NCBI GenBank assembly: GCA_947074345.1
Contig: CAMTPH010000002.1
Coordinates: forward strand, 1-64,000
DNA length: 64,000 bases
From: an uncultured Bacteroides sp.
GTDB taxonomy: Bacteria; Bacteroidota; Bacteroidia; Bacteroidales; Bacteroidaceae
Direction: 5' to 3'
Under the pieces are notes generated by a model, which saw nothing but the letters and a program-made list of their open reading frames with translations, searched no databases and was not told the DNA's origin. This document shows, in pieces, positions 3,881 to 57,150 of this stretch. Within the stretch, counting starts at the first letter, position 1. The number at the start of each line of letters is the position of its first letter. Made by a program: the position numbers and the translations under genes.

Positions 3881-5704
3881 CTAATAAAACTCTAGATCAA
3901 AGACCTTTTTCAACTGAACTAATGCTTCGTTCTTCTCAGCCATCATTTTAAATTTATCAACTCTGCTGATAGGACGAGAACTTTCAACTGCTTCATTTAC
4001 GCGTACAACCATCTTAATTTTACTATTACGCAAAGAAGTACGCATGTAGTTTTGAAACGTAGAAATCAACGAAGTAAATTCCTTAGCTACAATTTCGTTA
4101 TCTACAACCACCTCAAAACTTACCCCATCATTCAATAAGGTAGGTCTGATAAGCTGCATTCGCTTCATCAAAGCATCTTGCTCTTTTGATAATTGAGCAG
4201 CATATGCTTGCCAATAGAAGTTTATATCCTTCTCATTAAAGATATAATCCTCTTGTGGGGCAGCGCTAGCTACAGAAGAGCGATTAACCGCACCTGTTGA
4301 GACCTCATCTCTTTTGGGAGCAGATTTAATAGACAACCCAATAGATGATTTATTCATCGTAGGAATCTTTTTCTCTGCATTAGTAGATGACTGAGGTTTA
4401 ACTTCGGGAGCACTGCCACCTGCAACTTTTGGTGTTACATTATAGGCAGATACAGAATCGGAAGCAACTGAATTATTGTTGGCAGCCGAAGTTGCAGTTT
4501 GTACTTGCGTAGCAGACTGCGTCGAACTCTGAGAAAGCTGAGCACTCTCAGTGTTGAATACTGGTTTTAATATTTTCTTAGGGCGACGCCCACCACTCAC
4601 ATCATCATCTTCAACCAAACATTGAGCTACCTGAATAATAGCCAGCTCAACAAGCAAGCGTTTGTTTTTGCTTGCACGATAATTCATATCACAGTCATTA
4701 CATATTTTCAATGCACGATACAAAAATGGAACTGCACATTTTTGAGATTGCTCTTGGTATCTCGCTTTGATACTAGCACCCACTTCCAATAATGAAAGAG
4801 TTGCCGGATCTTTGCTAACCAACAAATCACGAAAGTGAGATGCCAAACCGGTTATAAAATGGCTACCATCAAATCCTTTATTCAATACATCGTTAAAGAG
4901 AAGCAAAGAATCACTCACCTTATTTTCGAGCAAGAAATTTGTCAGACGGAAGTAATACTCATAGTCCAATACATTTAGATTCTCGATAACTGTGTTGTAA
5001 GTGATGTTACCACCAGTAAAACTAACTACTTGGTCAAAGATAGACAGGGCATCACGCATACCGCCATCAGCCTTCAATGCAATAACATTCAAAGCTTCAG
5101 TTTCTGCATTCACACCTTCGGTAGTTGCTACATAAGATAAATGCTGTACGGTATCTTCAACACTGATACGGTTGAAATCGTATATCTGACAACGCGATAA
5201 GATTGTTGGAAGAATCTTATGCTTTTCGGTCGTTGCAAGAATAAATATAGCATGCCTAGGTGGCTCTTCGAGCGTTTTAAGAAACGCATTGAAAGCAGCT
5301 TGCGACAACATATGAACCTCATCAATAATAAACACTTTGTATTTACCGATTTGAGGCGGGATACGAACCTGCTCTACCAACGATTTAATATCGTCTACCC
5401 CATTATTGGATGCAGCATCCAATTCATGAATGTTATAAGAACGTTGTTCATTAAACGCTACACAAGACTCACAAGCATTGCATGCTTCTCCATCAGCATT
5501 TGGCGATAAGCAGTTGATGGTTTTAGCAAAAATACGTGCACAAGTAGTTTTACCAACTCCACGTGGTCCACAAAAAAGATAAGCGTGAGCTAACTTTTGC
5601 GAAGCAATGGCATTTTTAAGTGTTGTGGTAAGTGATAATTGCCCAACAACCGATTTAAAGGTCGAAGGACGATATTTACGAGCAGATACTATATAATTTT
5701 CCAT
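3881..5704 (-). CDS. dnaX: DNA polymerase III subunit gamma/tau
   Basis: SARKYRPSTFKSVVGQ, FCGPRGVGKTTCARIFAKTINC, EVHMLSQAAFNAFLKTLEEPP, SRCQIYDFNRI. Confidence 0.96.
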   Translation of the reverse strand: MENYIVSARKYRPSTFKSVVGQLSLTTTLKNAIASQKLAHAYLFCGPRGVGKTTCARIFAKTINCLSPNADGEACNACESCVAFNEQRSYNIHELDAASNNGVDDIKSLVEQVRIPPQIGKYKVFIIDEVHMLSQAAFNAFLKTLEEPPRHAIFILATTEKHKILPTILSRCQIYDFNRISVEDTVQHLSYVATTEGVNAETEALNVIALKADGGMRDALSIFDQVVSFTGGNITYNTVIENLNVLDYEYYFRLTNFLLENKVSDSLLLFNDVLNKGFDGSHFITGLASHFRDLLVSKDPATLSLLEVGASIKARYQEQSQKCAVPFLYRALKICNDCDMNYRASKNKRLLVELAIIQVAQCLVEDDDVSGGRRPKKILKPVFNTESAQLSQSSTQSATQVQTATSAANNNSVASDSVSAYNVTPKVAGGSAPEVKPQSSTNAEKKIPTMNKSSIGLSIKSAPKRDEVSTGAVNRSSVASAAPQEDYIFNEKDINFYWQAYAAQLSKEQDALMKRMQLIRPTLLNDGVSFEVVVDNEIVAKEFTSLISTFQNYMRTSLRNSKIKMVVRVNEAVESSRPISRVDKFKMMAEKNEALVQLKKVFDLEFY

Positions 5705-23553: not shown

Positions 23554-23636
23554 AACATCCCCATGTTGTTACACACAACACCCGGATGTTTTACACCACA
23601 ACATCCCCATGTTTTCATACACAACATCCGGATGTT
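23554..23636. repeat. Four-unit palindromic array, 23-bp period
   Basis: AACATCCCCATGTT (23554), AACACCCGGATGTT (23577), AACATCCCCATGTT (23600), AACATCCGGATGTT (23623); 9-nt spacers. Confidence 0.92.
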
Positions 23637-52671: not shown

Positions 52672-54936
52672 ATGATGAAATTAAAAAACTTCAAACCGCA
52701 TTTAGTAGTAGCCATTGCTACAGGATTATTCCTTTTTAATAGTTGTACGGAAAACCTGAAAGACGATTTTGACTTAGACAAAGCCAAAGAAGTATTTGAT
52801 GAAACCTTCCCTATTAAAAACGTGGACCCAAATCATGATTGGAAAACTACTCAGAAAAAAACAATCAATGTTAGATCTTATGGTGATGTAGGAGAAACTT
52901 ATCGAATCACCGTATTCGACAGTAATCCTTTAGATACTAAAGCCAGTGCAAACATGCTTATACATGGATATGTAAGCAACAGTTTAGTGTTAAACACACC
53001 TTTCGACTGTCCTACCATTCAAAAGAGTGTCTTTGTAATGCGTACTGACTCGAAGAATCGAAGCATTGTGAAACATGTACTTGTTGACGATAACATTACC
53101 AATGTAACTTTTGGTGCTCCACAAGTAGCAAGTCGTGCAAATACAAGGACCGATGATGTAGTTATAGAAACTCAAGAAGCGCCTTTCAGTCTAGATGAGC
53201 TAAATACCGCTATGGCCAATGCCATTGAACTGACTGAAGGCGTGATACTCGAACCAAGTAGCGTGTACAAGATATCTGCCGGAACAACTTTCACCTCGTA
53301 TATACAAAGTTGGAAAGTGGGATCAAATAGAACTAAAATATTAGTTTACGGTAAATGGGAATATCCTACAAAGCAGAGTTCAGGCAATTCTGGTTACTTA
53401 GGAATTGAAGCTGGAGTAGACATCTGCATTATGCCTGGTGGCGAATTGGCAGTACCAACTGATAGCGAGATGAAATTCAATAACTCATCACGTTTAGTTA
53501 ACTATCCTAATGGTAAGATAAGCGGTGATTGCATATACTTAGCAAACGGTTCTAGCAATATAATGAACTATAATGTAGGAGATATCACGCTTAAACAATT
53601 GCATATAGATACTAATGGTTATCTATACAATTGTAGTACGATGAATGTAGAGTATCTAAATTTCCAGAACAATGCCATTTTAACCAATCAAGGCAAATTG
53701 ATAATAGATCATTCGAGCGAACATTGTGTGGTGCGCAACAACTGTTACTTTATAGCCGATGTATTTAGCGGACATTTAGTGTTAGGCAAAAATAGTGCTG
53801 CCGAGTTCAATAAATACAATCAACGTTTATCTGGTGGCGATTGGGGCAGAACATTGACCATGAGTAGCAACTCAATGCTGACTGTAAAAGAGGATGCTAT
53901 GTGGTCGGGAGCTACATTTACCGGCCCATCAAACGGATATGCTTTAATAAAAACAGGAAAAGTATTGGGCGCAAATAGCTTTAGCCATTCGGGCAATATC
54001 TATTATGAAGTAGAAGAGTTCGGTTTCGACCTCAACGATCCTTATAATGATGCAAGATACATTGCAGGTATCGAGTTCAGTAAATGGGGAGAAGCTCCAT
54101 TGGCTATTCCAGCAGGTGACTGTACAGGAGAAGGTAATACACCTGGTGACGGAGGAGATGAAATTGAATATAAGCCAATGACTTATACCTATGCATTCGA
54201 AGATAACTACCCCAATATGGGCGACTATGATATGAATGACTTAGTTATCGATGTTGCTATTGATTATGAATTAAATCCGACTACCAATAAGCCAAAGAGA
54301 ACATTATTGAATGTAACAATCAAAGCAGTTGGTGCAACAAAACAGTTGGGAGCTGGTCTCAGAATTATTCGAAAAAACCTAAATCATCCTTATGCTGAAT
54401 ATGGAATAATGTCTTTAAATGGTTTAACCATAAACGATTTGTTCATTGCTCCTTCTTACTTTAATTCGTTTGAAAGCATGAGCACATATCCAACATTTGG
54501 ATTATTCGGCAATGCCCATTATCTATTGGGACAAGATACAAGTAAAATGCTGAATACCGGTTTGGTAAAAGTAGATGATAAAGAAGTTACGAAACTCACA
54601 GTCTATATATGGCACGAAAATCGAGATGATGTAGAACTATTTACGAAAGACGATCTAGATGTTTTCATTGGATACAAAGGTACAGGTACGAAGAGAACAG
54701 AAGTTCATCTATATGAATTTAGCCAATATGGTTCTACGCCAAATGGAGAAACACATGATAACATAGCTGCCGCAGCAGGCAACAAAACTTGGGCACTATG
54801 TATACCAAACTTCAGATACCCTAGAGAGTATGTAAGCATCAAAGATGCATATCCTATGTTCGAAGGTTGGGCGCAAGACCGCAATACCAATCAAGATTGG
54901 TACCTACATCCTATCGAAAGTAAGGTGTATAATTAG
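52672..54936 (+). CDS. LruC domain-containing lipoprotein (DUF4842-like)
   Basis: Lipobox FLFNSCTENL; C-terminal TYAFEDNYPNMGDYDMNDLVIDVAIDYEL and HLYEFSQYGSTPNGE...IPNFRYPREYVSIKDAYPMFEGWAQD. Confidence 0.85.
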   Translation: MMKLKNFKPHLVVAIATGLFLFNSCTENLKDDFDLDKAKEVFDETFPIKNVDPNHDWKTTQKKTINVRSYGDVGETYRITVFDSNPLDTKASANMLIHGYVSNSLVLNTPFDCPTIQKSVFVMRTDSKNRSIVKHVLVDDNITNVTFGAPQVASRANTRTDDVVIETQEAPFSLDELNTAMANAIELTEGVILEPSSVYKISAGTTFTSYIQSWKVGSNRTKILVYGKWEYPTKQSSGNSGYLGIEAGVDICIMPGGELAVPTDSEMKFNNSSRLVNYPNGKISGDCIYLANGSSNIMNYNVGDITLKQLHIDTNGYLYNCSTMNVEYLNFQNNAILTNQGKLIIDHSSEHCVVRNNCYFIADVFSGHLVLGKNSAAEFNKYNQRLSGGDWGRTLTMSSNSMLTVKEDAMWSGATFTGPSNGYALIKTGKVLGANSFSHSGNIYYEVEEFGFDLNDPYNDARYIAGIEFSKWGEAPLAIPAGDCTGEGNTPGDGGDEIEYKPMTYTYAFEDNYPNMGDYDMNDLVIDVAIDYELNPTTNKPKRTLLNVTIKAVGATKQLGAGLRIIRKNLNHPYAEYGIMSLNGLTINDLFIAPSYFNSFESMSTYPTFGLFGNAHYLLGQDTSKMLNTGLVKVDDKEVTKLTVYIWHENRDDVELFTKDDLDVFIGYKGTGTKRTEVHLYEFSQYGSTPNGETHDNIAAAAGNKTWALCIPNFRYPREYVSIKDAYPMFEGWAQDRNTNQDWYLHPIESKVYN

Positions 54937-55014
54937 ATAAATAAGATAAAGCAATTAGATTAAATACGTAGATTATCATAAGCAATCTAATAGACATATA
55001 CACTTAACCAACAA

Positions 55015-55097
55015 AACACCCGGATGTTTTACACAACAACATCCGGGTGTTTTACATAACAACATCCCCATGTTTTAATAGACAACATGGGGATGTT
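55015..55097. repeat. Four-unit palindromic array, 23-bp period (related to 23554-23636)
   Basis: AACACCCGGATGTT (55015), AACATCCGGGTGTT (55038), AACATCCCCATGTT (55061), AACATGGGGATGTT (55084). Confidence 0.93.
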
Positions 55098-55212
55098 TTA
55101 CTGATTAACTTACTTACAACAATCAAATAACTAACTATTTCGACAACACTATTGCACTATCAATGAGCAATATAGATAGAACAATAGCATACCAAAACAT
55201 TGCTATCCTGAA

Positions 55213-56499
55213 TTATACTTTATCTAATGCCTGGGTCAAGTCTTCCAAAATATCATCGATATGCTCTGTACCGATAGATAAACGCACAGTACCCGGATAG
55301 ATTTCTTGCTCTTCTAGCTCCGTTGTATTCAACTGCGAGTGGGTTGTAGTGGCAGGATGAATCACCAGCGATTTAACATCGGCTACATTGGCCAAAAGCG
55401 AGAATATCTCTAAGCTATCAATAAAACGATGTGCCTCTTCTTGTCCACCATCTATCTCTATAGTGAAGATAGAGCCGGCACCATTGGGGAAATATTTATT
55501 GTAACGTACATTATCTGGATGAGAAGACAACGAAGGGTGATTTACCTTTTTCACTTTCGGATGCTTTTCTAAAAACGCTACCACTTTCAAGGCATTCTCT
55601 ACATGGCGTTCAACACGTAGCGACAAAGTTTCTAGACCTTGCAACAAGATGAAAGCATTGAAAGGACTGATAGCAGCACCTGTATCGCGCAATATAACGG
55701 CACGGATACGTGTAACAAAAGCGGCTGGTCCGGCAGCATCAACGAAACGAGCGCCATGGTAACTTGGATCTGGCTCTGACAATTGAGGGAATTTACCCGA
55801 AGCTACCCAATCGAATTTACCAGAGTCAACAATCACACCACCAAGCGATGTGCCATGTCCGCCAATAAACTTAGTAGCCGAGTGTACTACGATATCAGCG
55901 CCATGCTCAATAGGGCGAATCAAATAAGGAGTACCAAACGTATTGTCGATAATCAAAGGTATATTGTGGCTATGAGCAATCTCGGCTACTGCCGCGATGT
56001 CGATAATATTTGAGTGAGGATTGCCAAGTGTTTCAATAAACACAGCCTTTGTGTTGGGTTGTATAGCATTCTCGAAATTCTCTAAGTTAGTAGGATCAAC
56101 AAACGTAGTTGTTACCCCACGAGTAGGGAATGTATGAGCCAACAGGTTGTAAGAGCCGCCATAGATAGTCTTTGCAGAAACAATATGATCTCCGGCACGG
56201 GTAATGTTTTCGAAAGCATATGTTACAGCCGCTGCTCCAGATGCAACTGCCAATGCAGCTACTCCACCTTCGAGAGCAGCCACACGTTTCTCGAATACAC
56301 TTTGAGTTTCGTTAGTCAAACGACCATAGATATTGCCTGAATCGCGCAAAGCAAAACGATCGGCTGCATGAGCAGAGTTGTTAAATACGTAAGATGTAGT
56401 TTGATAGATAGGCACTGCACGTGCACCTGTCACTGCATCAGGTTGTTCTTGTCCCACATGTAATTGTAGAGTCTCAAAACGTAAATTCTTTGTTGCCAT
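55213..56499 (-). CDS. metY: O-acetylhomoserine aminocarboxypropyltransferase / sulfhydrylase
   Basis: [77 protein letters not shown]. Confidence 0.94.
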
Positions 56500-56676: not shown

Positions 56677-57150
56677 ATGGCAGCTTCAGCAGACAAATTA
56701 GACAAAGTAGATTTGCAAATATTGCGCACGTTGCAAGACAATGCACGTCTCACAACCAAAGAACTTGCTTCGCGAGTTAGTCTATCATCAACACCCGTTT
56801 TCGAACGCCTCAAACGCTTAGAAAACAATGGTTACATCAAGAAATATATTGCAGTACTCGATGCCGAAAAGCTAAATCAAGGCTTTGTAGTATTTTGCAA
56901 TGTAAAGCTCACAAGGCTAAACAGAGACATTGCCGCCGATTTCGTGAAGATTATCCAAGACATTCCCCAAGTTACCGAGTGCTATAATATATCGGGCAAT
57001 TTTGATTATCTGCTCAAGATACACGCACCCAACATGAAGTATTATCAAGAGTTCATATTGAATGTGCTTGGCACAATTGATAGCCTCGGCTCGATAGAGA
57101 GTACCTTCGTTATGGACGAAGTAAAACACGCCTATGGCATACATATATAA
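56677..57150 (+). CDS. Lrp/AsnC family transcriptional regulator
   Basis: LDKVDLQILRTLQDNARLTTKELASRVSLSSTPVFERLKRLENNGYIKKY. Confidence 0.96.
   Translation: MAASADKLDKVDLQILRTLQDNARLTTKELASRVSLSSTPVFERLKRLENNGYIKKYIAVLDAEKLNQGFVVFCNVKLTRLNRDIAADFVKIIQDIPQVTECYNISGNFDYLLKIHAPNMKYYQEFILNVLGTIDSLGSIESTFVMDEVKHAYGIHI

Follow-up and report, generated by a model that had tools for sequence, protein, structure and literature searches.

A tandem array of near-palindromic units

The window analysed here, a 64,000-nt stretch of DNA from an uncultured Bacteroides sp. (contig CAMTPH010000002.1), contains an array of short repeated units at 55015-55097, placed between convergent genes, one of which is metY. 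A gene for an Lrp/AsnC-like regulator (56677-57150) lies some 1.6 kb from this array, on the upstream side of metY. An earlier note, made from the letters alone, had described four units starting at 55015, 55038, 55061 and 55084, and both these positions and the unit sequences it gave are exact. The homologous array that it mentioned some 31 kb away was located at 23554-23636, and also has four units at a 23-bp pitch (Table 1).

Table 1. Positions in the window of the array, its units and flanks, and the second array
Feature	Positions	Strand	Sequence or properties
Array	55015..55097	.	four 14-bp units, exact 23-bp pitch, 9-bp spacers, 83 bp
Unit 1	55015..55028	.	AACACCCGGATGTT
Unit 2	55038..55051	.	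AACATCCGGGTGTT; site type of unit 1, opposite strand
Unit 3	55061..55074	.	AACATCCCCATGTT
Unit 4	55084..55097	.	AACATGGGGATGTT; site type of unit 3, opposite strand
Right flank	55098..55167	.	weak register-locked base preferences to about 70 nt (array family of this genome)
Left flank	54945..55014	.	preferences of the right flank, as reverse complement
Second array	23554..23636	.	AACATCCCCATGTT, AACACCCGGATGTT, AACATCCCCATGTT, AACATCCGGATGTT; 23-bp pitch

The units of both window arrays are near-palindromes of 14 bp, and the genome to which the window belongs (3.1 Mb in 183 contigs, 84% complete) contains many more of them. A pattern describing two adjacent units has 68 matches per strand, compared with 0 for a reversed control, and the array family is thus far beyond chance. 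The earlier note had proposed a search of the genome and its relatives for further copies, and these are numerous: we extracted 24 arrays from this genome, 20 of them with exactly four units and 4 that are degenerate or cut by contig ends.

The 20 complete arrays comprise 80 units. When these are read on both strands, AACA and TGTT never vary, T or C stands at position 5 and A or G at position 10, and the four central bases are CCGG, CCCC or GGGG; there are just four site types. Whereas the units are almost invariant, 38 of the 60 spacers in these arrays are distinct, and the 9-bp spacer retains a T as its second base and an A as its eighth in 119 of 120 readings. Weak, register-locked base preferences also extend beyond the units. 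The flanks of this genome's arrays carry 0.195 bits of information out to approximately 70 nt, compared with 0.059 +/- 0.006 bits in phase-shuffled flanks, and the corresponding values in other Bacteroides are 0.091 and 0.034 +/- 0.004 bits. A period of 11 bp in these flanking preferences, which would favour wrapping of the DNA, is no more than suggestive (p = 0.08 and 0.20). The array at 55015-55097 has no match in Rfam.

The hairpins are not selected

The earlier note considered that the array could fold as two adjacent hairpins, for which a tandem bidirectional transcription terminator was the plainest explanation, and that paired changes within each hairpin suggested maintenance of complementarity. 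The inverted pairs are real (their arms are of 16 bp and 14 bp, with loops of 9 nt), RNA from the array is predicted to fold strongly on both strands (z about -9), and a location between convergent genes is where a bidirectional terminator might be expected. However, complementarity between neighbours is at chance level: over the 20 complete arrays, 7 of 40 unit 1/unit 2 and unit 3/unit 4 pairs are perfectly complementary, and the expectation from shuffling of the units is 7.07 (p = 0.58). Because only four site types exist, and all are near-palindromic, complementary neighbours are unavoidable, and the 'perfect hairpins' of this array are not selected.

Other properties also speak against a terminator. 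Predicted folds vary from array to array: one forms adjacent hairpins, another a single long nested hairpin, and mixed shapes also occur. There are 0 terminator-like sites in 54900-55260, where no T tract follows a G+C-rich stem. Finally, the arrays are not confined to convergent gene ends, as many are in promoters or between divergent genes. At 100 loci outside this genome, the flanking genes are convergent at 26, divergent at 25 and in the same direction at 49, and among 18 arrays in this genome, 6 are divergent and 2 convergent. A role as a terminator is therefore very improbable. What stands of the earlier interpretation is its alternative, four phased sites on DNA, along with its remark that strict phasing and a second array call for more than a terminator.

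Distribution in the genus and beyond

Within the genus, 121 genomes were sampled, and 21 of them contain exact AACA-type triplets of units, with 0 hits for the reversed control; a sample of 394 genomes from the order yielded no triplets beyond the genus. A looser pattern, four copies of ACA-N6-TGT at a 23-bp pitch, was searched against GTDB species; the matches listed include many Bacteroides and Parabacteroides, as well as metagenome-assembled genomes (MAGs) labelled Kiritimatiellae, Treponema, Desulfobulbaceae and others, in which the outer bases differ. Some of these matches (L065, L080, L082, L116 and others) are simple perfect repeats, which may be unrelated to the array family. Near-perfect 23-bp tandem repeats of the CACAGCCTGCTGTG type, seen in MAGs of Prevotellaceae and Odoribacteraceae (L080, L082 and L124), may likewise be another kind of repeat. 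At two further loci, L091 and L104, the outer flanks of the array are long inverted repeats (TTTCAATCTCGT ... ACGAGATTGAAA and TTAAGTATGGGACTG ... CAGTCCTATACTTAA).

The array beside metY is present in the close relatives G497 and G459 and absent in G476 and G004. Three species retain it, even though their nearby noncoding DNA can no longer be aligned. Relatives have other unit sequences at an unchanged 23-bp pitch; G476, for example, uses one species-specific unit type genome-wide. Since units are near-invariant, spacers are variable, and the units of relatives differ at the same pitch, the arrays look like DNA sites that are read by a protein.

We also considered a phage origin, and rejected it. 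A phage collection yielded a single match, to a 5.4-kb contig that is unannotated and carries chromosomal genes, and there was no plasmid match. A GenBank entry labelled 'Bacteriophage sp.' (MT838576.1, our locus L155) has glycoside-hydrolase-like genes and a five-unit array, and resembles a Bacteroides chromosome.

An HU-HIG protein is the candidate reader

We retrieved array loci from many species and clustered the neighbouring genes by similarity, without a prior guess. The third largest cluster is an HU-family protein found at 10 loci (9 distinct proteins, those at L148 and L194 being identical), and the array is 5′ of its gene at all 10. The protein matches the Pfam family HU-HIG (PF18291; E about 1e-16 to 1e-22) and the NCBIfam family HU_rel (TIGR01201), and by profile and predicted fold it is thus a member of the HU/IHF superfamily. 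The B. fragilis-like protein is predicted by AlphaFold2 to have an HU fold (core confidence above 90, mean 77), and the solved structures that the model best resembles are 4fmr (B. vulgatus), HU and IHF, in agreement with sequence searches. No transposase is prominent among the recurrent neighbours at these loci. The presence of an Lrp-like gene near metY had first suggested an octameric wrapper of the Lrp type, an idea that was dropped once the clustering had pointed to HU-HIG.

The gene and the arrays tend to occur in the same genomes. Using the B. fragilis-like copy as query and a threshold of at least 134 bits, which we chose with the scores in view, where the list showed a clear break, close HU-HIG homologues are present in 20 of the 121 genomes. 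Of the 21 genomes that bear arrays, 16 belong to these 20 (p = 2e-12, treating the 121 genomes as independent). When only the 71 near-complete genomes are counted, 14 of 15 array-bearing genomes carry a close homologue (p = 4e-11, with genomes again treated as independent). Near-complete genomes also include one (G490) with an array and no close homologue, and three (G032, G436 and G018) with an HU-HIG gene and no AACA triplets, which have promoter arrays of a variant motif.

The surroundings of the gene further single out HU-HIG. In nine genomes (G472, G014, G017, G201, G451, G446, G486, G459 and G484), the array-linked HU-HIG gene directly precedes mraZ-rsmH, although in two of these, G484 and G459, it precedes rsmH alone, no mraZ frame having been picked. 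In six others (G434, G510, G438, G022, G018 and G470), it follows an unrelated channel-like gene, and the array is still upstream. (The mraZ, rsmH, sigma-factor and channel-like genes were named by reading their sequences.) As HU-HIG is present in both contexts, it is the common factor, and MraZ is not. From these associations, we predict with considerable confidence that the HU-HIG protein reads the arrays.

In the window genome itself, we found no close HU-HIG homologue in the 84%-complete assembly. However, contig C4 of this genome starts with a degenerate array followed by a sigma-factor gene that is 88.6% identical to the G472 gene preceding the array and HU-HIG. Since the contig thus begins at the syntenic array and sigma-factor gene, the HU-HIG gene is probably just off its end. 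Beside this degenerate array (L044), a gene for an ECF-type sigma factor occurs twice in tandem, at 379-879 and 1286-1648 of C4.

HU-HIG paralogues have their own promoter arrays

A test that presupposes no motif gave a similar picture. In 28 HU-HIG promoters, direct repeats peak at a lag of 23 (mean z 7.6, control -0.2), and other lags are near 0, except 22 and 44. In a separate set of 20 HU-HIG promoters the mean z is 6.7, and lag 23 is the best in 16 of 20. Within the relevant clades of the genus, a four-unit palindromic array with a 23-bp pitch is directly 5′ of most HU-HIG genes. The paralogues share this pitch, and the palindromes differ between them: AACATCCGGATGTT, GACACCCGGGTGTC, TAGACCCGGGTCTA, TTGATATATATCAA, GAGTTGCACAACTG and GACATGCACATGTC. 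In other families of the order, approximately 13 of 29 promoters have arrays, mostly with a 22-bp pitch, and for distant HU-HIG paralogues the 23-bp promoter array is often absent, or 21-22 bp is used. Where an HU-HIG gene carries such an array in its promoter, it is likely to be autoregulated through it.

Some genomes contain two array families. G486 has a second family, of the ACACCCGGGTGT type, at positions 5687, 225473, 768930, 1221846 and 2054991 of contig C2 and 68442 of C3; one of these arrays adjoins a second HU-HIG gene, and several copies have near-identical spacers, as if recently copied. In G472, GACA-type arrays at positions 1211067, 1556643, 2899123 and 5174076 of contig C1 occur beside the AACA type, and one of them lies in front of a second HU-HIG gene (at 1210581). 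For this second gene, the lag test on a 501-bp stretch was not significant.

Arrays tend to lie near the replication origin in relatives

The origin could be placed in four relatives of the window genome, for which GC skew (in 20-kb pieces) and parS sites agree; the window genome, being fragmented, was not used. Against a null of uniform position, the distance from array to parS is 0.51 Mb in G451 (1.11 Mb expected; p = 0.0011), 0.65 Mb in G472 (1.30 Mb; p = 0.015), 0.57 Mb in G486 (0.99 Mb; p = 0.005, with contig order assumed) and 0.68 Mb in G017 (0.89 Mb; p = 0.15, not significant, with contig order assumed). The combined p for the four relatives is 1.5e-5, or 2.2e-4 without the HU-HIG promoter arrays. 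The dnaA gene is a poor marker of the origin here: it is 0.5-1 Mb from the GC-skew/parS origin in G451, G472 and G017, and its use leads to one-sided array distributions. Its use as an origin marker in these bacteria has likewise been warned against (PMC10197239). The same study found by Hi-C an origin domain in Bacteroides caecimuris, and no known condensin in Bacteroidetes (PMC10197239).

Given that arrays precede the HU-HIG gene in relatives and that their scatter favours the origin, HU-HIG binding is probable. We consider it likely, though less so than the identity of the reader, that the 23-bp-pitch arrays are HU-HIG sites for four dimers, and that they are autoregulatory operators that have been dispersed as origin-proximal chromosome sites. 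Each array would then be a composite site for four dimers of a sequence-specific HU-HIG protein (PF18291); from the symmetry of the units and their copy number, we infer one dimer per 14-bp palindrome. The dimers would be stacked about two helical turns apart, probably bending or wrapping the DNA, with weaker contacts in approximately 60-70 bp on either side. At HU-HIG promoters the array would mediate probable autoregulation, with a private palindrome for each paralogue. In the clade of the window genome, the paralogue heading the mraZ-rsmH (dcw) cluster may have spread its array to about 6-25 intergenic places, which are densest around the origin. The role we favour for these dispersed arrays, tentatively, is in chromosome organisation or coupling to division, akin to that of Noc or MatP sites. 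A fuller model, in which Bacteroidales HU paralogues each have a private four-site address with a 23-bp pitch and regulate themselves through it, and in which addresses scattered around the origin either mark an origin domain or link the position of the nucleoid to division via mraZ-rsmH, is more tentative still.

Two alternatives would give the dispersed arrays less to do. They could be merely operators, by which HU-HIG (or MraZ) regulates nearby genes with no role at the level of the chromosome. The HU-HIG promoter is indeed the clearest functional context, and about three quarters of arrays face at least one gene start; moreover, mraZ, which encodes a DNA-binding protein, adjoins HU-HIG in much of the clade. 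However, the array at 55015-55097 is between convergent genes, the 100 loci elsewhere exhibit no promoter preference, and a plain regulon would not predict clustering near the origin, while MraZ as reader leaves unexplained the arrays before HU-HIG genes that are unlinked to mraZ. We therefore regard this alternative as unlikely. Somewhat less likely again is that the dispersed arrays are selfish or passive repeats (MITE- or REP-like), which spread by copying and are functionless outside the HU-HIG promoter. This would fit their patchy distribution over species (21 of 121 genomes), the inverted flanks in some species and the near-identical spacers of the second family in G486. On the other hand, copying of whole arrays would not produce the almost invariant units of this genome with 38 of 60 spacers distinct. 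The genome-wide, species-specific unit type of G476, the retention of array position where noncoding surroundings are not retained, and the bias towards the origin all argue against it as well.

Comparison with known systems

HU proteins are usually regarded as non-specific DNA benders. HU and IHF are both dimers that bend DNA, HU being largely non-specific and IHF recognising single sites. In the literature that we searched, we found no tandem arrays in which four palindromes stand together and each paralogue has its own. If our model is correct, such four-site addresses would represent an unreported, sequence-specific layer of chromatin in a dominant gut lineage, and the promoter rule would predict the binding sites of many HU-HIG paralogues from sequence.

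The sites of Noc (NBS), SlmA (SBS) and MatP (matS) resemble the arrays in being short, dispersed, palindromic and strongly biased along the origin-terminus axis, and in having a link to a division gene cluster. As with Noc, the arrays are biased away from the terminus half, lying nearer to parS than uniform placement would give in three of the four relatives (p = 1.5e-5 for all four combined). They differ in that the linked protein has an HU-HIG fold and that sites come in fours at a fixed pitch, and a division or membrane role for them is a candidate one. ParB or Noc itself as reader was rejected, as the units are not parS, separate parS sites exist in the same genomes and the linked protein is HU-HIG. 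A family of origin-proximal sites with a candidate protein would offer a testable entry to the Bacteroides origin domain (see PMC10197239).

Several repeat families are superficially similar. REP/BIME elements with RAYT are also dispersed, intergenic and palindromic, whereas the arrays have no noted GTAG/CGTC tag, come as four units at a 23-bp pitch, and the gene linked to them encodes an HU protein, not a Y1 transposase. The BrickBuilt minisatellite/MITE of Porphyromonas gingivalis shares with the arrays a 23-nt tandem period, dispersal, intergenic location and occurrence in Bacteroidales. It has the consensus AGAYCATARTATCCTCTCRTRTG without spacers, repeat numbers that reach at least 18, a leader and tail, and IS-like terminal repeats (PMC4596501). 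We rejected its identity with the arrays, as BrickBuilt lacks their 14-bp palindromes, variable 9-bp spacers and grouping in fours (PMC4596501).

The only published mention of the array family that we found is a typing locus of B. fragilis (PMC7585543). This VNTR locus, TR1 (AACATCCGGATGTTTTAATATAT; 23 bp, 4 units, non-coding), serves as a typing marker only, with no function given, and its copy number is said to vary among isolates (PMC7585543). Judged by its sequence, TR1 is a member of the array family, and it resembles the HU-HIG promoter array of G472.
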